DNA of 64,000 nt, taken from NCBI RefSeq assembly GCF_028369105.1, contig NZ_JAQNDO010000001.1, positions 8,836,501 to 8,900,500 on the forward strand, given 5' to 3'. A program made the position numbers and the translations under genes. Positions 10,694 to 20,712 of the stretch are shown in pieces. The notes beneath the pieces are model-generated. The model was given only the letters and a program-made list of their open reading frames with translations. It was not told the DNA's origin and did no database searches. Positions within the stretch are counted from its first letter, which is position 1; the number at the start of each line of letters is the position of its first letter. The stretch comes from Polyangium mundeleinium (GTDB lineage: Bacteria; Myxococcota_A; Polyangia; Polyangiales; Polyangiaceae).

Positions 10694-11530
10694 ATGGCTC
10701 GTCTCGTCGGCTTCGTCGGCAACCGTCCGGACCTCGGGGCACGGGTTCTCGAGCTCGAAGCGCGCCACCTCGCGGTGCACAAGCAGCCCGATCGCATCCC
10801 GGGCTGGGGCGTCGGCTTCTACCAGGGTGGCGAGATCCTCTTGAAACGCCGCCCCATCGACGATCGTCCGCAGATCAACATCGCCGAGATGACCCACGGC
10901 CTGCGCGCCGACACGCTGATCGCGCACGTGCGGCTCGGCACCGTCGGCGGCTCGCGCACGGAGAACACGCACCCCTTCCGGTACCGTCAGTGGCTCTTCG
11001 CGCATACCGGCACGGTCGAGGCCTTCTCCACGCTGCGCGGCCGCCTCTCGGACTCGCTGCCGCAGTTCTTGCAGCGTGACGTTCGGGGCGAGACGGACAG
11101 CGAGCTGCTCTTCCACCTCTTCCTGTCGTTCCTCCACGACGCCGGGGCCCTCGAGCGTCAGGACGTACCGCCGGAGACGGCGCGCAGCGCGCTCCGTTCG
11201 AGCGTCGCACTCGTCGACGGGCTCTCGGCCGAGGAGGGCAAGGGACCGAGCCGCATGAACCTGCTCGTGGCGGCCCCCGATTACGTCATCGCCATGCACG
11301 GGAGCGGCCGCATGGTTTGCCGCGTTTTCCAGGGCGCCGCGGACCTCGAGCGGATCCTCGGCGACGGCGGCCTCGGGCGCATGCGCCTGCCCGACTTCGC
11401 CTCCTGCCGCCTCTCGATCCTCGCCTCCGACTTCGACGACGACCAGACGCCGCCCGGATGGACGGCCGTCCAGGACCGTGCGATCGTCACCCTCACCCGC
11501 ACGGATGACCCTCTCGTCGAGCCGATCTGA
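10694..11530 (+). CDS. Class II glutamine amidotransferase-like protein lacking the catalytic Cys
   Basis: The 278-residue protein follows the YafJ/EgtC-type N-terminal-nucleophile amidotransferase fold: an N-terminal strand (MARLVGFVGN), WGVGFYQGG, IAHVRLGTVGG, ENTHPF and FAHTGTVEAF. In the family, residue 2 is the nucleophilic Cys (MCR...), but codon 2 here is GCT (Ala). The oxyanion-forming HNG is HTG here. So the fold seems kept while glutaminase activity is probably lost. It may be a regulatory or binding version, and its ligand is unknown. A GAGAGGG lies about 7 bases before the ATG. The next gene starts inside its 3' end, which implies translational coupling. Confidence 0.85.
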   Translation: MARLVGFVGNRPDLGARVLELEARHLAVHKQPDRIPGWGVGFYQGGEILLKRRPIDDRPQINIAEMTHGLRADTLIAHVRLGTVGGSRTENTHPFRYRQWLFAHTGTVEAFSTLRGRLSDSLPQFLQRDVRGETDSELLFHLFLSFLHDAGALERQDVPPETARSALRSSVALVDGLSAEEGKGPSRMNLLVAAPDYVIAMHGSGRMVCRVFQGAADLERILGDGGLGRMRLPDFASCRLSILASDFDDDQTPPGWTAVQDRAIVTLTRTDDPLVEPI

Positions 11531-12194
11531 CCTGCCTCACCACACGCGCGTCTCCGTGGCGGCGTGCGTGCTCCTGTTCGTGAGCCTGCTTGGCTGCGGG
11601 GGCGCGGGGGCGCCTCTGTTTGCCACCACCTCGGAGCTGCCCGAAGGATCCCGGAGGCCGGACGGCGTCGCGGTGGACCCGGCGAGCGCGCCGCCACGCG
11701 CGAAGGACGTGGCGAACGCGGAGGCGGGGCTCGTCACGCTACGCACGCCGCTCGGTACGGAGGCCGTTCTCACCACGGTGAGCGGTTTTTTCCGGGCGAT
11801 CGTGGACGAGGACATGGAGGCGCTCGAAGCGCTCTTCACGCGCGACGCGCTGTCGATCAGCACGAGCTACGGCCCGAGCGGCAGCGCGCCCTCGGCGCCC
11901 CTCTTCTGGACGCAACGCATGCGCCGGCTCGACTACACGAAGCTCGCCGGCGAGGTCGTCTTCCGCGAGGTGGAGCTCGAGATCTACCGCGCGGAGGATG
12001 CGCTCACGTCCTCGCCGCACCCGGCGATTCGCGTCGAGGCGCTTTCGACGGGCGACGTCGTGGTGCGCGTGCCGATCGCGACGTCGCGCCTGGGGTCGGA
12101 TCGGCTGCTCGGCGAAGAGGTCGTGCTCTGGCTGCGCCGCGAGGGCGAGCGATACCGCATCTATCGCATCGTCGAAGATTTTCAGATGCCTTGA
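11505..12194 (+). CDS. Lipoprotein with SnoaL/NTF2-like domain
   Basis: From ATG 11505 the 229-residue product carries a lipoprotein signal (VLLFVSLLGCGG, lipidated Cys near residue 31). A region from about residue 85 on (TTVSGFFRAIVDEDMEALEALFTRDA) reads like an NTF2/SnoaL-type alpha+beta cone: a helix pair followed by curved strands. Such domains bind small ligands or act as dimer scaffolds; no catalytic residues are apparent. The start lies 26 bases inside the preceding amidotransferase-like gene. An earlier in-frame start at 11478 would overlap more and gives a worse signal peptide. Function unknown. Confidence 0.6.
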   Translation: MTLSSSRSDLPHHTRVSVAACVLLFVSLLGCGGAGAPLFATTSELPEGSRRPDGVAVDPASAPPRAKDVANAEAGLVTLRTPLGTEAVLTTVSGFFRAIVDEDMEALEALFTRDALSISTSYGPSGSAPSAPLFWTQRMRRLDYTKLAGEVVFREVELEIYRAEDALTSSPHPAIRVEALSTGDVVVRVPIATSRLGSDRLLGEEVVLWLRREGERYRIYRIVEDFQMP

Positions 12195-12237: not shown

Positions 12238-13164
12238 ATGCCTACCATGAGTCGCCTCAAGGTCGCGTTCGTGGCGTCGGGCGGGGCCGTGCGAGGCCTC
12301 GCGCACCTCGGGGTCCTCAAGGCTTGCGAGGAGCTCGGCGTCTTGCCGGAGATCTTCGTGGGAACGAGCTCCGGCGCGCTCATCTCCGCGACCTATGGCC
12401 AGGACATCCCGCTCGACGTCCTGCTCGACGCGTATCGCCTGCCGTGGCGGCGCCGTCATCGCGGCCCTCGGCTCTTCCCATCCACGTTCCTCGGCCTGCC
12501 GAGGCCCGCGGAGCTGCTCGATCCGGGGCACCTCGTCTCGGGGATCTTCTCGGCCGACCGGCTGGAGACCTACCTCTCGAGCTTCTTGCCCATCAACGAT
12601 TTCCGCAAGCTCCCGAACCCCGTGTTCGTGACCGCCGTGGACATCGACACGGGCGAGCGCGTGGTGTTCGGACCAGGCTACGAGGAGACGACGCCCGTGA
12701 GCCGAGCAGTCGCAGCGAGCTGCTGCGTGCCCGGGATTTTCCGCCCGTTCCGCATCGGGAGCAGGTACTACGTGAACGGCGAGGTGGCGCGCACGCTCTC
12801 GGCGGACATCGCGATCGCGGCGGGGGCCGACGTGGTGATCGTCTCGAACGTGTACAGGCCCGAGCGCGTGCGCGAAGGGCGGCGCAGCCTGGCGCGACGC
12901 GGCCCCTTCCCCGTCTTGCGGCAGTCGCTGAGCGTGCTGCTCACAGAGAAGGAGCGGCAGGGCGTGGAGCTTTACGGAAAACTCCACCCGCACGTCACGT
13001 TCCTCGACATCGCGCCGGAGATCGGGGCCTTCAGCTACCTGAACCGCTTCGCGGTGCGATCGCTCGTGCTGCGAGGATATCGGCAAGCGCTGCGGGTGCT
13101 GGCCGAGGCGAAGGAGAAGGGCCTGTTCGAGCGGACGAACAAGCAGACGAGTCCGCTCAACTGA
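12238..13164 (+). CDS. Patatin-like phospholipase-fold protein with altered catalytic dyad
   Basis: The 308-residue protein shows the patatin oxyanion-hole loop (SGGAVRGLAHLGVLKA) and the nucleophile elbow GTSSG (Ser44). The second dyad element, normally Asp-Gly-Gly/Ala, reads YYVNGEVARTLSADIAI, so N180 sits where the catalytic Asp is expected (codon AAC). Patatins hydrolyse acyl esters of lipids through a Ser-Asp dyad; this change should weaken or abolish that unless another acid substitutes. There is no signal peptide, so it is probably cytoplasmic or membrane-associated. ATG 12238 has a GGGTGA about 6 bases upstream; ATG 12247 is an alternative. Downstream is the repeat-filled gap at 13165-13528. 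Confidence 0.82.
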   Translation: MPTMSRLKVAFVASGGAVRGLAHLGVLKACEELGVLPEIFVGTSSGALISATYGQDIPLDVLLDAYRLPWRRRHRGPRLFPSTFLGLPRPAELLDPGHLVSGIFSADRLETYLSSFLPINDFRKLPNPVFVTAVDIDTGERVVFGPGYEETTPVSRAVAASCCVPGIFRPFRIGSRYYVNGEVARTLSADIAIAAGADVVIVSNVYRPERVREGRRSLARRGPFPVLRQSLSVLLTEKERQGVELYGKLHPHVTFLDIAPEIGAFSYLNRFAVRSLVLRGYRQALRVLAEAKEKGLFERTNKQTSPLN

Positions 13165-13528: not shown

Positions 13529-14005
13529 TCACATCCCAGCGACGATGCGGTACTCGTTGTTGTAGGGCACGATTTCGAGGCGGTTGTCCTCGACCTTGCG
13601 GCGCCACTCTTCGCCGCGTGTGCCGGGGATGCGGTAGCTCGCGCTGTACGTGTAGTCGACGAAGATCAGGTCGTCTTCGCGCGAGATGCGGCGGTAGCGG
13701 ATCTCGTAGCGGATTGCGCGCGCGTCCTGAAATGCGCCGCTCAGGTAGGCCTTCAAGCCGGCGTAATCGATGTCGTCGCCTGGATCGACGTTGCCGCCGT
13801 CCTCGTAATAGTCGGGCGACGCGAAGCCGTAGAGGACGGAGAGATCCTTGTCTTCGACGGCGTGCCGGTACTTCTCGCAAAATGCGATGATCTTGCGGTT
13901 TTCGTCGGAGTCCTCCACGTCGGTGTTGGGGATGTAGCGCGTGGCGCATCCCGTGAGCGTGGAGAGGGCGAGCGCGAAGGCGGCAAGGGTTCGGGTCGAA
14001 GGCAT
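13529..14005 (-). CDS. Small lipoprotein with NTF2-like domain
   Basis: The 158-residue product has a lipoprotein signal (TLAAFALALSTLTGCA, lipidated Cys at about residue 19). The mature part opens with helices (RKIIAFCEKYRHAVEDKDLSV) and continues with strands containing IRYEIRYRRIS and IFVDYTYSAS. This order, with a YGFASPDYY loop, is like SnoaL/NTF2 domains and like the lipoprotein at 11505-12194. No catalytic residues are evident. It is preceded by a 31-base gap from the ketosynthase gene end on the same strand and has no obvious operon partner. Envelope-located by its lipobox; function unknown. Confidence 0.65.
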   Translation of the reverse strand: MPSTRTLAAFALALSTLTGCATRYIPNTDVEDSDENRKIIAFCEKYRHAVEDKDLSVLYGFASPDYYEDGGNVDPGDDIDYAGLKAYLSGAFQDARAIRYEIRYRRISREDDLIFVDYTYSASYRIPGTRGEEWRRKVEDNRLEIVPYNNEYRIVAGM

Positions 14006-14036: not shown

Positions 14037-15959
14037 CTACCTCCGGCAAGCCGACCGCCATTTTGTCACGAAATCGAGGACGTTTGCCTGCAAGGCAAGG
14101 TGCCCGAGAGGGCCCGCGTCGTGGTCGCTCGTGATGTCAGGGTCGATCAAAGCAAGCGCATTTTCGGCGGAAACGCCGAGCAACACGGCCACCGCGCCCT
14201 CGGCGTAGGCGCGGTCCGAGGCGGACGTGCATGACAGAAGATCACGCGCGACAGGGCCGGCATCGTCGACCGCGAGCACGACGACACGATCCGCGTCGCC
14301 CATCGCGACGAGCTCCGCGCCGACGGAGAGCGCCTCGGTCCCGCCGTCGAGGCCTGCGTTGACGGCGAAGCTCGGGCCGCGGAGCTGGTAGACGATCGCG
14401 CACTCGCCCGCGACGGCGTTTGGCGAGGTGGCCGGGAAGAGGCGTGGATCGACGGCGCCGGGGCCTCGCGCGCGGCGGCGCGCGTCGAAGCGATCGTTCG
14501 TGTCGAGCGTGGCGAGCGCGTGTCCCGCGACGATGCCGGCGCCTGCGAGGGCCTCGCGCCCCACGACACGCGCAAGCTCGGCGACGGCGCGCATTCCGAG
14601 CCGACAGAGCGGATCGAGCCGCGCGAGGCGATCCCGCGCGACCCCCGTCAGTGCGGAGAGCTCGACGAGATCGACGCTCGTGATCGCGGCGTGCGCGTGC
14701 AGGTACACGGGGCGCGCTTGCCTCGGCACGCGACCGCTCGGCGCGCGCGTGAGGACGAGCGCCGCGTTCGCGCCGCCAAACGCAGCCGAGAGCTTGAGCG
14801 CAGCGTCGAGTGGGCGCGCTTCGGCGCGATCGAGCAGGGAGACGGCAGCGTCCGGATCGAGCTCGCCTTCCCCGGCCGCGGCGGGCGCGATCCCGCGGCG
14901 AAGCGCATCCGCGGCGGCGAGCGATTCGAGCACGCCGGCCGCGCCGAGCGTGTGGCCGATCTGGGCCTTGAAGGGGTGCACGACGGGTGCGGGGGAGTTT
15001 TCGAAGAGCCGGGCGATCGCGCGGGATTCCATCGCGTCGTTGAAGGGAGTGGCGGTCGCGTGGGCGCTGACGAGGCCCATCGACGCGGGCGCGAGGCCGC
15101 TGTCCGCGATCGCGGCGGCGCCCGCGCGCGCGAGGCCGTCGCCGGTGCGATCGGGCGCGGTGATGTGCACGGCGTCCGTGGAGGCGCCGAAGCCGGCGAC
15201 ACGGACGAACACCGAAGCGCCGCGGGTGTGCTCCTCGCGGACGAGCGCGACGAGGCCGGCGCCTTCACCGAGGCTCATGCCGTCGCGGCCGATACGGAAA
15301 GGTCGGGGGCGCGAGGCCGTGGTCGCGCGCAGGGCCTCGAAGCCGGTGGCGACGAAGCCCGAGACCGCGTCGTAGCCGCCGGCGATCACGAGGTCACAGG
15401 CGCCCCGGTCGAGCCATCGCAGGCCGAGGCCAATCGCCAGGGTCGAAGCGGCGCACGCGGCGACGAGGTGCACGCGACGACAAACGTTGGGGCCCGAAAG
15501 ATCCGCCGCGGCGAACGCTTCGTCGAAGGGCGCGAAGTAGGTGGCGCGTCGGGCGAGCGCGGCGCGTTCGTCCTCGCGAACCTCCTCGCCGCGGGCCCAG
15601 GCTTCGCGGGCCGCGAACCACCGCGTCGCCCCGAGCATCCCGCCGCTCGACGTGCCGACGGCGATCCCGAGGCGCTCGTCACGCCAACCCGGGCGCATTT
15701 CGTCGAGGGAAGGAACGATCTGTCCGAGCGCGCAGGCGAGCAGCGTCGCCGCTTGGTCCTCGAAGGACGTGCCCGCGGGGAGCGGGAGCGAGCCGGGCGC
15801 GCGCGCGGCGAAAGGACGGGCGAGGCCTGCGCGGGCGAGCTCTTCGTCCCGCGTAAGGACCACACGCGCCGGCGCGCCGACGTCCCCCGCGTGGTACGCG
15901 CTCGGCCCCACGCCGAGCGCCGAGACGGCGCCCACCGCGATCACGCATGCATCACTCAC
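14037..15959 (-). CDS. Beta-ketoacyl synthase with extra degenerate C-terminal ketosynthase half
   Basis: The first ~400 of 640 residues form a complete KAS I/II-type condensing enzyme: nucleophile C169 in AACAAST, H300 in SAHATATPFND, K331 and H336 in FKAQIGHTLGAAG. It would elongate an acyl chain on an acyl carrier protein. The rest (about 410-640) looks like a second ketosynthase N-terminal half (SPNAVAGECAIVYQLRGPSF, then AGLDGGTEALSVGAELVAMGDA) with the nucleophile position lost. The second start is GTG 15959, which overlaps the upstream lipoprotein stop (GTGA) and has GGAGGAGG about 6 bases upstream. Last gene of the ACP-KS-lipoprotein-KS operon. Product unknown. Confidence 0.85.
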   Translation of the reverse strand: MSDACVIAVGAVSALGVGPSAYHAGDVGAPARVVLTRDEELARAGLARPFAARAPGSLPLPAGTSFEDQAATLLACALGQIVPSLDEMRPGWRDERLGIAVGTSSGGMLGATRWFAAREAWARGEEVREDERAALARRATYFAPFDEAFAAADLSGPNVCRRVHLVAACAASTLAIGLGLRWLDRGACDLVIAGGYDAVSGFVATGFEALRATTASRPRPFRIGRDGMSLGEGAGLVALVREEHTRGASVFVRVAGFGASTDAVHITAPDRTGDGLARAGAAAIADSGLAPASMGLVSAHATATPFNDAMESRAIARLFENSPAPVVHPFKAQIGHTLGAAGVLESLAAADALRRGIAPAAAGEGELDPDAAVSLLDRAEARPLDAALKLSAAFGGANAALVLTRAPSGRVPRQARPVYLHAHAAITSVDLVELSALTGVARDRLARLDPLCRLGMRAVAELARVVGREALAGAGIVAGHALATLDTNDRFDARRRARGPGAVDPRLFPATSPNAVAGECAIVYQLRGPSFAVNAGLDGGTEALSVGAELVAMGDADRVVVLAVDDAGPVARDLLSCTSASDRAYAEGAVAVLLGVSAENALALIDPDITSDHDAGPLGHLALQANVLDFVTKWRSACRR

Positions 15960-16744
15960 GACGCGCCTCCTCCCGAGGAGACGTCCTCCGCGGGCGCATC
16001 CGGATCGGCAAAGGCGCGCGGGTTCGGCGCGCGTCCTTTCTCCTCGCCCTCGCACGTGACGGTCACGGTGAGCCCCGTCGAGGCCTGGCGGTAGCGCACG
16101 GTGCCGCACCCGATCCGATCGGCCTCCACGCTCTCCTCGTCGAGCTTTTTCGCGCGCACCCCTTCGCTCGACCACGTCGTTCGCCGCGCCGAAAGCGCCC
16201 CCGAGCTCGCCGCGAAAAGCTCGATCACGGCCGCGCCGTCGCGCAGCGTGAACCGATCCCCTGAAGGCTCGGCCTCGTGCCAGAGCAGCCGCCCCGACGC
16301 GGGCCGGAGCAGCCACCAGCGGAGGAAATCCACAGGCAGCCCGCGTTTTTCGGCGCGGGGCGTCGACGCGTCGCCGCGCTTCAGCAGGTCGATCGCGGGG
16401 ACCGCAAACCGAAAGCGCTCCGCGCGCATCCAGAGGTCGAGCGCCGTGGTGCCGCCGGGCCCGAGCAGGATCATGCGCAGCGCGTCCGGCGGCGCGATCG
16501 CCACGGCGCCACGCGCCTCCAGCGTGCGGCCCGTCAAAGGCTCCCGCAACGCGAGCGCGAGCCGGAGCGTCCGCGCGCCCTCGCCCTCGGCCGCCTTCGA
16601 GATCGCCGCGAGCTTCCGTCGCGCCTCACGCCAGCGCGCGAGCGTCGGGGCCTCGGCCGCGCGCGGGGCGAGCGCGTCCGGCGCCGCGCACGAGGTCGCG
16701 CCGAGGAGCAACCCAAAGGCCCCGAGCAAGCCCGCGCGGCGCAT
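15956..16744 (-). CDS. LolB/DUF4292-like envelope lipoprotein in ketosynthase operon
   Basis: The 262-residue product has a lipoprotein signal (LLGAFGLLLGATSCAA). The mature part alternates strands in the way of LolA/LolB-like half-barrels, including RTLRLALALREPL and LRMILLGPGGTTALDLWMR; these domains hold acyl chains of lipoproteins or lipids. I recognise no exact family. It sits between two ketosynthase genes: its start ATG 16744 overlaps the upstream stop (TGATG; a GTG at 16747 is the alternative) and its stop overlaps the next start (GTGA). Aryl-polyene gene clusters also pair ketosynthases with LolA-like and other lipoproteins, so a role in delivering the product to the outer membrane is a reasonable inference. 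Confidence 0.65.
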   Translation of the reverse strand: MRRAGLLGAFGLLLGATSCAAPDALAPRAAEAPTLARWREARRKLAAISKAAEGEGARTLRLALALREPLTGRTLEARGAVAIAPPDALRMILLGPGGTTALDLWMRAERFRFAVPAIDLLKRGDASTPRAEKRGLPVDFLRWWLLRPASGRLLWHEAEPSGDRFTLRDGAAVIELFAASSGALSARRTTWSSEGVRAKKLDEESVEADRIGCGTVRYRQASTGLTVTVTCEGEEKGRAPNPRAFADPDAPAEDVSSGGGAS

Positions 16745-18969
16745 CACGACGAACCAGGTTCGTCCGGCGATCGTTCGGCCGTGAGCAGCAAGGCGTACCC
16801 CCGCTCGGGCGCGTGCCCCACGACGAGCGCGGCGTCGAGCTCACCCCGCGCAATCGCGGCGAGGGCCGCGGCCATGGCGAACCCGCCCGCGCCCTCGTGC
16901 ACGCCCGACCGCGGCGCGACGGCGCGATGCGGGACACGCGCCCAGGCCTCGGGCAAACGCAGGCCAGGCGGGAGATCCTCCTGCCCAGTGAGGACCGCAG
17001 CGCGGTGGGGCGGTGCCGGGACGGCGTCGAGTGCACCCTCGCCCGCGCCGCGCCACGACGTCCACCAGGGCAGGCGCGCGAGCGGCCGGATCCCCCGCGC
17101 CTTCGCGTGCTCCTCGGCTTCGAGCAGGATCGCGCTCGCGCCCTCGCTGCGGACCCCGCGTGTTTCGCCCGAACAGATCGGGCCGAGGCAACGCTCGATC
17201 ATCGGGCTCGCCTCCTCCACGCTGCCGGCCGCGAGCACCTCCCCCTCGCCCACCGCGATCAGATCCGCCGCCGTCACGACCGCGCACTCGGCCGTCACCC
17301 CGAGGTCGGCCACGGCGAACACAGGCCCGCGCAGCCCGAGGTAGATCGACGCGTGCCCCACGGGCGACGAGGGCACGAGGTTCGGGAAATCCGCCGGGCT
17401 CGCGAACTTCACGCCCTTCTCGTAGATGCGCCGCATGAACGCGGTCGAGCCATCCACGCTGCCGAACGCCGCGCCGAGGATCGCGCCAACCTCCACGCCG
17501 ATCGAGGGATCGAGCGGATCGAGGCCCGCGTCCCGCAGCGCCCGCTGAATCGCCACCGCCGACAGCCGGCCCGCCCGATCGAGCCTGCGCGCGCGGCCCA
17601 CGTCGAGGTGATCGGCCGCGTTGAAGTGGATCGGCCCCGGCGCGGGCGGAGGACCAGGCTCCAGGTACACGTCGTTCTCCCGCGCGCCGAGCACCCCGAG
17701 CGGGCCGATGGTCGCCGCGGAGACCACCACCACCGCGCGCCGCGGCGGCGCCTGCGGGGCGGGGAACACGCCCGGCGCGGCGAACACGAGCGATGTGTCC
17801 GTTCCTCCGAAGCCGAACGAATTCGACATCACCGCACGCACGTCCGCCTTCGTCGCGCGCGTCGCGTGCATGAGCGGGCACGCGGGATCGACCTCTTCGA
17901 GCCCCTGCGTCGGCGGGATCTCGCCCCGCGCGATCGTCATGACCGACACGGCCGCCTCGATCGCGCCCGCGGCCCCGAGCGTGTGCCCGATCTGGCCCTT
18001 CACCGAGGAGACGAGGACGCGCTCGGCGTCGGGCCCGAAACAAGCGCGGATCGCGGCCGCCTCCATCGAGTCGTTCAGCGGCGTCGCCGTCCCGTGCGCG
18101 TTCACGTGGTCGATGTCCGCGGGCGAGAGGCTCGCTTTCGAAAGCGCCGCCTGCATCACGCGCGCCGCCGTCCGCCCCTCGCGCTCGGGGTTCGTGATGT
18201 GGTGCGCCTCGGCGCCCACGCCCCAGCCGACGAGCTCCGCGATCGGTCGCGTCACGCCCCGCGCGCGGCTCGCGTCTTCGGGTTCGAGCACGAGGAACGC
18301 CGCGCCCTCGCCGAGGTTCAGGCCCGCGCGGCGTTTGTCGAACGGGCGGCACGGGTTCGGGTCCACGGCCGAGAGCGCGCCGAACCCCGTGTACGTGAGC
18401 CGGCAGAGCCCGTCGGCGCCGCCCGCGACCACGCACGGAGAGACGCCCGCGCGGATCCAGGCCGCCGCGAGCAGGAGCGCGTTCGCCCCGCTCGAACACG
18501 CGCTGCACAAGCTGCGCACGCGCCGAAACGGCCCCACCGCGGCGCGCACGTGATCGGCCGTCGACGAGAGCGGGTGCGTGAGCATCGCCCGGAGCGGCTT
18601 GATCGCATCCGCGTCCCGCGACAGCTCCGCGAGCAAATCTTCAGTCTCGTACATGCCGGCGGTCGTGCCGCCGACGATCAGATCGATGGGCCCGGCCGCG
18701 GGCGCGACGCCGGCCTGCGCGAGCGCCTCGCGCACCGCGAGCACGCTCATCGCGTCCGTGCGCGACCACGCCTCGGCATCACCCTCGGGCGCGACCTCGG
18801 CCGCCGAGATCCCGGGGACCTCCGCGGCGAGCCGCGTGCGCATGTCGGGCAGGTGGAAAATCGAGAGCTCGCCGAAGGCGCGATCGCCCGCGAGCAGCCT
18901 GTCCATGGTGACGCCGGCCCCGCGCCCGAGGGGCGAGACGACGCCAATGCCGGTCACCCAGATGCGCAT
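16744..18969 (-). CDS. Beta-ketoacyl synthase (FabF-like) with extra degenerate C-terminal ketosynthase half
   Basis: Residues 1-410 of 741 are a complete FabF-type condensing enzyme: MRIWVTGIGVVSPLG at the start, nucleophile C158 in SACSSGANAL, H292 in VNAHGTATPLND, K324 and H329 in SVKGQIGHTLGAAG, and the SNSFGFGGTD loop near 390. Residues ~420-741 resemble a second ketosynthase (VGAILGAAFGSVDGSTAFM, SSPVGHASIYLGLRGPVF) but the nucleophile region reads DLGVTAECAV and no His/Lys/His set follows. The gene lies 66 bases downstream of the ACP gene and overlaps the next lipoprotein gene by one base. Fused degenerate halves could act like chain-length factors. Substrate and product are unknown. 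Confidence 0.87.
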   Translation of the reverse strand: MRIWVTGIGVVSPLGRGAGVTMDRLLAGDRAFGELSIFHLPDMRTRLAAEVPGISAAEVAPEGDAEAWSRTDAMSVLAVREALAQAGVAPAAGPIDLIVGGTTAGMYETEDLLAELSRDADAIKPLRAMLTHPLSSTADHVRAAVGPFRRVRSLCSACSSGANALLLAAAWIRAGVSPCVVAGGADGLCRLTYTGFGALSAVDPNPCRPFDKRRAGLNLGEGAAFLVLEPEDASRARGVTRPIAELVGWGVGAEAHHITNPEREGRTAARVMQAALSKASLSPADIDHVNAHGTATPLNDSMEAAAIRACFGPDAERVLVSSVKGQIGHTLGAAGAIEAAVSVMTIARGEIPPTQGLEEVDPACPLMHATRATKADVRAVMSNSFGFGGTDTSLVFAAPGVFPAPQAPPRRAVVVVSAATIGPLGVLGARENDVYLEPGPPPAPGPIHFNAADHLDVGRARRLDRAGRLSAVAIQRALRDAGLDPLDPSIGVEVGAILGAAFGSVDGSTAFMRRIYEKGVKFASPADFPNLVPSSPVGHASIYLGLRGPVFAVADLGVTAECAVVTAADLIAVGEGEVLAAGSVEEASPMIERCLGPICSGETRGVRSEGASAILLEAEEHAKARGIRPLARLPWWTSWRGAGEGALDAVPAPPHRAAVLTGQEDLPPGLRLPEAWARVPHRAVAPRSGVHEGAGGFAMAAALAAIARGELDAALVVGHAPERGYALLLTAERSPDEPGSS

Positions 18970-19035
18970 GCGCCCCTCGGCCTCGTCACGGCGCCGCCCG
19001 GCGCGTTCGGCCGGGCGACAAAGGAAAGTTCCTCG

Positions 19036-19308
19036 TCAGGCCGCGGCCTTCGCGCGCACGATGTGATCGGTGAGCGCGTCGACCGAGGCGAAGATGCTGC
19101 GGGCCTCGTCTCCCTCCGGGACACGCACGCCGAACTTTTCTTCCACGGACATGGCGAGCTGCAGCGCGTCGAGCGAGTCGAGCCCGAGCCCGCGCCCCTC
19201 GCCGAAGAGCGGCGCCGCGTCGTCGATGTCCGCCGGCGTCTTCCCTTCGAGGTTGAGCTCGGTGACCATGAGTTCCTTGAGCTTCTGCCGCACGTCCGCA
19301 GGATCCAT
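19036..19308 (-). CDS. Acyl carrier protein
   Basis: The 90-residue acidic protein has the four-helix ACP pattern and the phosphopantetheine attachment motif GLGLDSLDALQL, with the modified Ser in DSL. ATG 19308 gives MDPADVRQKLKEL; a longer frame upstream would add 33 basic residues unlike an ACP. It is the first gene of the minus-strand operon and presumably carries chains between the two ketosynthases downstream. The 174 bases between it and the divergent crotonase gene should hold promoters for both directions. It differs from housekeeping AcpP in lacking the usual fabD/fabG/fabF context, so it likely serves a dedicated pathway. Confidence 0.9.
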   Translation of the reverse strand: MDPADVRQKLKELMVTELNLEGKTPADIDDAAPLFGEGRGLGLDSLDALQLAMSVEEKFGVRVPEGDEARSIFASVDALTDHIVRAKAAA

Positions 19309-19482
19309 GGGTATCAACGCGTCCCAGGTAGCACGAAACCGTGCCCCGTTTGAAGGTGGTTCGCGCCGCCGCGCCCGAGGCCGGCGTCGCGGAAGGAAGG
19401 AGAACACGCGCGCATCGCGAGCGAGCCCGCCGTGGCAGCGACGGTGGATCCCGTCGCGCCGTCACGGTAAATGGGGCGCGCC

Positions 19483-20274
19483 ATGGCTCTTGTCGAGTGC
19501 GAAACAAGATCTCGCGTCGCCGTCCTCACGCTGAACGACCCGCCGGTGAACGGCTACACGCACGAGATGATGAAGGAGCTCGACGCGGCGATCCTCGCTT
19601 GCCGCTTCGATGACGCGGTGCAGGCGATCGTCGTGACGGGTCACGGCGAGAAGTTCTTCTGCGCCGGCGCCAACATCAACATGCTGAAGGCCGCGACGCC
19701 GAGCTTCAAATACCAGTTCTGCTTGCACGCGAACGAGACGCTCCTGCGCCTCGAGCACACGCCGAAGCTCGTCATCGCCGCGCTGAACGGCCACACCGTG
19801 GGCGGCGGCCTGGAGGTCGCGCTCGCCTGTGATCTGCGCGTGGCGCGGCGCGGCGCCGGGAAGGTGGGCCTGCCCGAGGTCGCGCTCGGCGTCCTGCCGG
19901 GCACGGGCGGCACGCAACGCCTCGCGCGGCTCGTCGGAAAACCGCGCGCCATCAAGCTCATGTGCGAGGGCACGACGTTCGACTTCGACACGGCGCTCGC
20001 CTACGGCCTCGTCGACGAGGTCTGGGACACGGAGACCCACGCCGCGTTCCTCGACCGCGCGATCGCGTACGCCCAGGGCTTCACGACCCCAGGCCGCGCG
20101 GCCCTGGCCGTCGGGCGTATCAAGCGCGCGGTGCAGACCGGCCTGGAGATGGGCCTCGAGCAAGGCCTCGCCTTCGAGCGGGAGCTCCAGGCCGAGCTCT
20201 TCGCCTCCGAGGACGCCCGCGAGGGCATCGCGGCCTACGTCGAGAAACGCAAGGCGTCGTTCCAGGGCAAGTGA
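19483..20274 (+). CDS. Enoyl-CoA hydratase/isomerase (crotonase) family protein
   Basis: The 263-residue protein has the crotonase oxyanion-hole stretches FFCAGANINML and GHTVGGGLEVALACD. Both acid/base glutamates expected for hydratase activity are present: E111 in GGGLE and E132 in GLPEVALGVLPGTGG. It probably hydrates trans-2-enoyl-CoA or isomerises enoyl-CoA. ATG 19483 has GGGG seven bases upstream; ATG 19471 is an alternative. It is divergent from the ACP-ketosynthase operon, so it may belong to the same lipid pathway, but CoA and ACP substrates differ and this is only inference. Confidence 0.85.
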   Translation: MALVECETRSRVAVLTLNDPPVNGYTHEMMKELDAAILACRFDDAVQAIVVTGHGEKFFCAGANINMLKAATPSFKYQFCLHANETLLRLEHTPKLVIAALNGHTVGGGLEVALACDLRVARRGAGKVGLPEVALGVLPGTGGTQRLARLVGKPRAIKLMCEGTTFDFDTALAYGLVDEVWDTETHAAFLDRAIAYAQGFTTPGRAALAVGRIKRAVQTGLEMGLEQGLAFERELQAELFASEDAREGIAAYVEKRKASFQGK

Positions 20275-20304: not shown

Positions 20305-20712
20305 ATGTCGACGAAGGACATCGAGAGCTTCGAGGAATTCTGGCCGTTTTACGTGCGCGAGCACAGCCTCAAGGCGACGCGCACCTTCCACTTCGCCGGG
20401 ACGACCGTGGCGGGACTCACGGCCCTCGCGGCGATCGCCCTCCGCCGCCCGGCGCTCGTCCCGATCGCGCTCGTGGCCGGCTACGGGCCCGCGTGGTTCT
20501 CGCACTTCTTCATCGAGAAGAACAAGCCCGCGAGCTTCAAGTACCCGCTCTGGTCCTTCGCGGCCGACTGGGTGATGTGGAGCAAGATCCTCACGGGCAA
20601 GATGGACGCCGAGGTCGAGCGCGTGATGTCGAGCAACGGCAAGGGCCACGACGAGGACGAGGCCACGGCCGGCTACACGCACTACCAGGCCGGGACGAAC
20701 GGCGTGAACTGA
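20305..20712 (+). CDS. DUF962/Mpo1-like membrane protein
   Basis: The 135-residue protein matches the DUF962 (YGL010w/Mpo1-like) layout. An N-terminal FWPFYVREHSLKATRTFHF precedes a hydrophobic pair of membrane helices (about 30-70), and SHFFIEKNKPASFKYPLW precedes WSFAADWVMW. Yeast Mpo1 is an iron-dependent dioxygenase acting on 2-hydroxy fatty acids in the ER, and several of its conserved His residues are present here (H19, H28, H71). A lipid hydroxy-acid role is a tentative inference. It follows the crotonase gene by 30 bases and is probably in the same transcript. Confidence 0.8.
   Translation: MSTKDIESFEEFWPFYVREHSLKATRTFHFAGTTVAGLTALAAIALRRPALVPIALVAGYGPAWFSHFFIEKNKPASFKYPLWSFAADWVMWSKILTGKMDAEVERVMSSNGKGHDEDEATAGYTHYQAGTNGVN

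Follow-up and report, generated by a model that had tools for sequence, protein, structure and literature searches.

What does a bacterium build with two ketosynthases that each carry a second, ketosynthase-like region, when their genes share an operon with an ACP and an envelope lipoprotein? The question arises in a 64,000-nucleotide stretch of the 13.25 Mb genome of Polyangium mundeleinium, here called the window, where four genes on the minus strand read from position 19308 to 14037 in the order ACP, KS1 (741 aa), lipoprotein and KS2 (640 aa). Re-derivation of the frames confirmed the coordinates of all four (ACP 19036-19308, KS1 16744-18969, lipoprotein 15956-16744, KS2 14037-15959). KS1 and the lipoprotein gene overlap by 1 nt (TGATG) and the lipoprotein gene and KS2 by 4 nt (GTGA), and these overlaps suggest that translation is coupled from KS1 through the lipoprotein to KS2. 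The operon and its neighbours comprise the following features, in which KS denotes a ketosynthase and CLF a chain length factor.

12238-13164, plus strand: patatin-like phospholipase (PF01734), a convergent neighbour found in 17/45 related loci and kept in Polyangium and Sorangium.
13529-14005, minus strand: small NTF2/SnoaL-like lipoprotein with an LTGC lipobox and a weak SnoaL_2 match, found in 32/45 related loci.
14037-14735, minus strand: predicted KS2 C-terminal half-CLF, ~232 aa (AF2 model, FabF profile match, tree).
14736-15959, minus strand: KS2 catalytic KS domain with Cys169, His300 and His336 (Pfam, NCBIfam, invariant catalytic residues, model against 6kxd_A).
15956-16744, minus strand: predicted LolA/LolB-fold lipoprotein, 262 aa (AF2 model, Foldseek/VIA matches to LolA/LolB, profile matches in loci L119 and L123).
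16744-17760, minus strand: predicted KS1 C-terminal CLF domain, ~338 aa (FabF profile match, 16 invariant columns, grouping with stand-alone CLFs).
17761-18969, minus strand: KS1 catalytic KS domain with Cys158, His292 and His329 (PF00109/PF02801, invariant catalytic residues, tree).
19036-19308, minus strand: ApeE-like ACP, 90 aa from ATG, with a DSL motif (PF00550, PRK09184).
19471-20274, plus strand: enoyl-CoA hydratase (crotonase) gene, divergent from the ACP gene (PF00378), found in 29/45 loci.

The NTF2-like lipoprotein gene is probably the last gene of the operon, and most orthologs of its product have a lipobox. A longer ACP would be possible from a GTG start at 19407. A scan for sigma-70 promoters and terminators returned no more matches than chance would give, and an Rfam search returned none. 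The hydratase gene is adjoined by an Mpo1-like gene (20305-20712; 2-hydroxy fatty acid dioxygenase family, PF06127), and some relatives also have Mpo1-related genes in the vicinity of the operon. A conserved protein of 238 aa, counted from the first start codon and lacking a Pfam match (11478-12194), accompanies the operon and the patatin gene in 18/45 loci.

Both N-terminal domains are FabF-type KS according to Pfam and NCBIfam, and the intact Cys/His/His set that an earlier note on this DNA had read in each is invariant in every ortholog compared (33/33 for KS1 and 30/30 for KS2). The KS2 model superimposes on 6kxd_A with a VIA Z of 51.5 and on 1tqy_A with 51.1, in an alignment confined to residues 1-408. 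The position aligned with the catalytic Cys is Leu in the C-terminal domains of both window proteins (KS1-C and KS2-C) and is never Cys in the orthologs compared. Profiles built from 15 sequences each match FabF structures in the PDB, at E 5e-26 for KS1-C and E 2e-12 for KS2-C, and by this measure both second domains are genuinely homologous to ketosynthases. In the AF2 model of KS2 (pLDDT 94.8, pTM 0.95) one thiolase fold follows the KS; secondary structure and sequence profiles were used to assess it, and the chain past the KS has five strands ordered as in the first thiolase half, with the second half absent. The best whole-chain PDB match of this model is the PfaC KS-CLF didomain 6riw (Foldseek; TMq 0.76, E 1e-34, 775 columns). 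The C-terminal half of KS2 thus adopts a thiolase-like fold in the model, and that of KS1 is assigned by profile. The earlier note had described a second ketosynthase-like half without a nucleophile in each protein; the missing nucleophile stands for both, and the word "half" fits KS2-C (~230 aa), whereas KS1-C (~340 aa) is by its length nearer to a whole CLF.

The origin of these domains is indicated by maximum-likelihood trees, in which the catalytic KS form one clade and the CLF domains another (100/100). KS2-N groups with the KS of acyltransferase (LPLAT) loci and of L119/L120 (100/99), and KS2-C correspondingly with the half-CLFs of the acyltransferase loci and the CLFa of L119/L120 (98/95). 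KS1-N is sister to the KS of RND/MMPL transporter clusters (98/93); KS1-C stands beside the CLFs of RND clusters in a first tree (96/86) and has no firm placement in a second. Internal duplication was considered as the source of KS1-C and rejected, since the AU test rejects trees that unite KS1-N with KS1-C (p 1.7e-5). The trees thereby bear out the proposal of the earlier note that CLF-like domains are fused in cis, since stand-alone CLFs are what both C-terminal domains cluster with.

A domain without a nucleophile, which in KS2-C also lacks the second thiolase half, is what would be expected if both were functionless remnants of tandemly duplicated KS genes. We consider decay of this kind very improbable. 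Comparisons within Polyangium give dN/dS values of 0.16-0.33 (KS1-C) and 0.14-0.27 (KS2-C), close to the 0.13-0.17 of the catalytic halves, and the C-terminal domains are therefore maintained by purifying selection. In addition, 16 columns of KS1-C are invariant across orthologs and KS2-C has invariant residues as well, the fold of KS2 is predicted with confidence, and the rejection of a KS1-N/KS1-C clade speaks against remnants of duplication.

The KS1-C profile, scanned over 84,980 genomes, identified 45 loci, several on contigs that end early, and all of them belong to Myxococcota or to bins labelled deltaproteobacterial or proteobacterial. The hosts are Polyangium, Sorangium, Minicystis, Labilithrix and uncultured relatives, and the nearest named relatives are Polyangium species with a KS1 C-terminal domain 92-94% identical to that of the window. 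Across the 45 loci gene order is kept, and the ACP is present in 43, fused KS1 in 42, fused KS2 in 35, the NTF2-like gene in 32, the LolB-like gene in 30 and the hydratase gene in 29. Among 282 Myxococcota genomes drawn, KS1-C scores above 200 bits were confined to the family of the window and one related family. The KS-CLF fusion in cis is found in all Polyangiaceae orthologs compared.

Elsewhere in Myxococcota the corresponding parts are separate. Two loci from two other families (L119 and L120) have separate genes in the order KS-CLF-ACP-FabZ-like-KS-CLF, preceded in L119 by an MMPL-type transporter and a polysaccharide deacetylase, and a further locus (L124) combines MMPL, ACP, FabZ-like, KS and CLF genes. 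Three others (L057, L058 and L060) pair a lipid-A-type acyltransferase (LPLAT; PF03279 in L057) with a KS and a CLF of ~280-290 aa. Directly after the CLF gene, L119 (12091-13800) and L123 (4404-6080) have a frame with a glycosyltransferase family 2 domain, the C-terminal segment of which matches the profile of the window's lipoprotein (E 2e-8); the glycosyltransferase domain is apparently fused to a LolB-like C-terminal segment in both. Given these separate parts and the tree groupings, the operon of Polyangiaceae appears to be a double KS-CLF cassette that two parallel fusions have condensed. In the simplest reading, two ancestral KS-CLF pairs underwent parallel fusions, and the dehydratase, transporter and glycosyltransferase were lost or relocated.

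The lipoprotein between the two KS genes has no match in Pfam or NCBIfam. Its AF2 model (pLDDT 88.6) is LolA/LolB-like, with VIA Z scores of 15.7 to P. gingivalis LolB (9tpm), 14.1 to 2w7q and 12.4 to E. coli LolB (1iwm), in agreement with the LolB-like protein that had been proposed for this position from the sequence. A predicted LolA/LolB fold alone does not establish a LolB role in lipoprotein insertion. A clean lipobox is present in about half of the orthologs, and the gene is absent from part of the operons (loci L047-L053, L099, L104, L106-L108, L110 and L111), hence it is not indispensable.

Our preferred reading, which we hold with somewhat better than even confidence, takes the operon for a condensed type II cassette that builds chains for the envelope. 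It builds on the domain make-up, the state of the catalytic residues, the folds predicted for KS2 and for the lipoprotein, the conservation of the operon, the selection on its domains and the ancestry from separate KS and CLF genes. In the mechanism we propose, KS1 (KSb-CLFb) and KS2 (KSa-CLFa) would each be a single polypeptide forming its own KS-CLF pseudo-heterodimer in solution, and both would probably be served by the dedicated ApeE-like ACP. The catalytic half would condense malonyl-ACP units, and the inactive half would line the tunnel and limit chain length. Points against this reading are that some operons do without the lipoprotein gene, that KS1-C has no firm place in the second tree, and that genes for a ketoreductase, a hot-dog dehydratase, an acyl-AMP ligase, an acyltransferase and an exporter are all missing from the operon; because it encodes neither reductase nor dehydratase these activities must come from elsewhere, and keto reduction and dehydration would probably fall to the housekeeping FabG/FabZ or to other enzymes encoded outside the operon. 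Four matches to the FabA/FabZ family occur in the genome, one of them a FabZ-like gene at 9.57 Mb. The acyl chain, which may be long, branched or a polyene, would be delivered to an outer-membrane lipid, which the co-translated LolB-like lipoprotein may shield or insert. The most likely function of the operon is thus to supply such a lipid with a specialised acyl chain, a destination suggested by the LolB-like partner and by the genes found around the homologues in relatives.

The suggestion in the earlier note of an envelope lipid or polyene is thus favoured by context, namely the LolB-like lipoprotein here and the MMPL, glycosyltransferase and LPLAT genes beside homologues in other Myxococcota; taken as a whole, the earlier interpretation is supported in its architecture by the trees and the KS2 fold, and its function is plausible. 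Homologues of an MMPL exporter and of an LPLAT are present elsewhere in the genome, the former distant (28-32% identity), which also speaks against the cassette; three of five such neighbourhoods were inspected (L138, L139 and L140) and gave no clear link to the operon. A more specific proposal, which we advance tentatively and with more reserve than the cassette itself, is a distinct class of envelope-lipid chain synthase in which two KS-CLF pairs are arranged around one ACP, as separate genes in Myxococcota and fused in cis twice in Polyangiaceae. The pairs would act in sequence (e.g., starter loading or short chains, followed by elongation), with the LolB-like carrier receiving the lipid.

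Further KS-CLF sets were observed outside the operon. The same genome encodes a free-standing KS-CLF fusion of 686 aa (C1:12,466,112-12,468,172; L010:8112-10172) that is not close to KS1 or KS2 on the tree and adjoins genes for a GcvT-like protein, an SDR reductase, a malonyl-transferase-like protein and a hot-dog dehydratase, which together make up a compact reducing set. Near 3.26 Mb it also has a type II-like locus (L009:6176-12829) with two KS, a FabA/FabZ-like dehydratase, an SDR reductase and a nitroreductase-like gene. In a locus of another Myxococcota family (L122:4653-11947), a B12-radical SAM gene is followed by two more KS-CLF fusions, of 800 and 779 aa, together with an ACP and with a KS and a CLF that are separate, so that three KS-CLF pairs lie consecutively.

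Control of chain length by KS-CLF enzymes is hard to study because two subunits must assemble, and the two proteins, which are fused by nature, stand alone and in one case have a CLF of half size, offer a ready object for such tests. No mention of the operon was found among the conserved clusters in the part of the 2025 Myxococcota survey considered here (PMC12766979), and it may on that account mark an unrecognised outer-membrane lipid of the predatory genera Polyangium, Sorangium, Minicystis and Labilithrix.

The fabD/fabG/fabF/acpP context of primary type II FAS is absent among the operon neighbours, here and in the relatives, and a separate FabF-like gene of the same genome lies at 7.68 Mb. 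The earlier view that the layout is not a standard FAS or type II PKS layout agrees with this context and with the fused KS-CLF; the novelty it implied does not extend to the parts, since a KS with a half-CLF in trans (ApeO-ApeC) and a KS-CLF fusion in cis (PfaC) are already known. A search of the open-licence literature, to be given limited weight, found no description of a cis fusion combined with a half-CLF or of a free-standing fused KS-CLF.

The closest parallels are with aryl polyene clusters, in which ApeO pairs with ApeC, a half-size CLF consisting of one thiolase fold (PMC8358021; PDB 6QSP), and the LolB-like gene apeN immediately precedes apeO (PMC8253772), an order we also found on inspecting the E. 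coli CFT073 ape cluster. In architecture KS2 resembles ApeO-ApeC, being a KS with a half-size, one-thiolase-fold CLF, with a second KS in the cluster. The ACP is of ApeE type: its family profile scores E. coli ApeE at 82 bits and ApeF at 27, and it reaches 68.6 bits against NCBIfam PRK09184, which is 1.4 under the cut-off of 70. The top NCBIfam match of KS2 is PRK09185 (226 bits, against 213 for fabF), and here too a LolB-like gene directly precedes a KS. These likenesses would fit fused KS-CLFs that, like ApeO-ApeC, make a conjugated, aryl-polyene-like pigment for anchoring in the outer membrane, a reading that we judge improbable. The families of ApeC (PF13723), ApeN (DUF3261; PF11659) and ApeI (PF22818) are absent genome-wide, KS2-C has no detectable kinship to E. 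coli ApeC (hhalign probability 0.1), and the window's lipoprotein has no sequence match to ApeN. The operon itself lacks AMP ligase, KR and DH, and the neighbours searched include none of the AMP ligase, KR, DH, RND exporter, LPLAT and glycosyltransferase of APE clusters. Since these families are absent and the starter, tailoring and export genes are missing, we do not file the operon as an APE cluster. Moreover, ApeO and ApeC are encoded by separate genes, whereas KS and CLF are fused here, and neither the CLF nor the LolB-like protein is of the same sequence family as its aryl polyene counterpart; the second KS of the aryl polyene system (ApeR) is a homodimer without a CLF, whereas KS1 and KS2 both carry a CLF domain.

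With PfaC of PUFA synthases (PDB 6RIW) the operon proteins share the fusion of KS and CLF in cis. PfaC belongs to a megasynthase of many domains, among them tandem ACPs, KR and DH, whereas the operon proteins end after the CLF domain, stand alone beside a single separate ACP, and in KS2 have a CLF of half size. As in a type II minimal PKS, a KS, a nucleophile-free CLF and an ACP are encoded together, but KS and CLF are not separate subunits. The KS fold, matched by 6kxd_A and 1tqy_A, and the CLF principle are those of ishigamide Iga11-Iga12 and the actinorhodin KS-CLF, which are separate full-length subunits; cyclase and tailoring genes are absent from the operon.

One special form of the envelope-directed cassette would supply a glycolipid, lipid-A-like or other, with a fatty acid that is very long or otherwise modified, which we regard as unlikely, if less so than a pigment. 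The genome encodes LpxC and four PF03279 proteins, and in L057, L058 and L060 a lipid-A-type acyltransferase adjoins the homologous KS and half-CLF pairs, but the operon has no acyltransferase or FabZ, and KS-CLF fusions are not known to us among rhizobial KS. The rhizobial cluster acpXL-fabZXL-fabF2XL-fabF1XL-adhlA2XL-lpxXL contains a fabZ, a dehydrogenase and an acyltransferase and is not described as having KS-CLF fusions; what it shares with the operon is a special, dedicated ACP together with two neighbouring KS, which in rhizobia serve an envelope lipid chain (PMC11901934).
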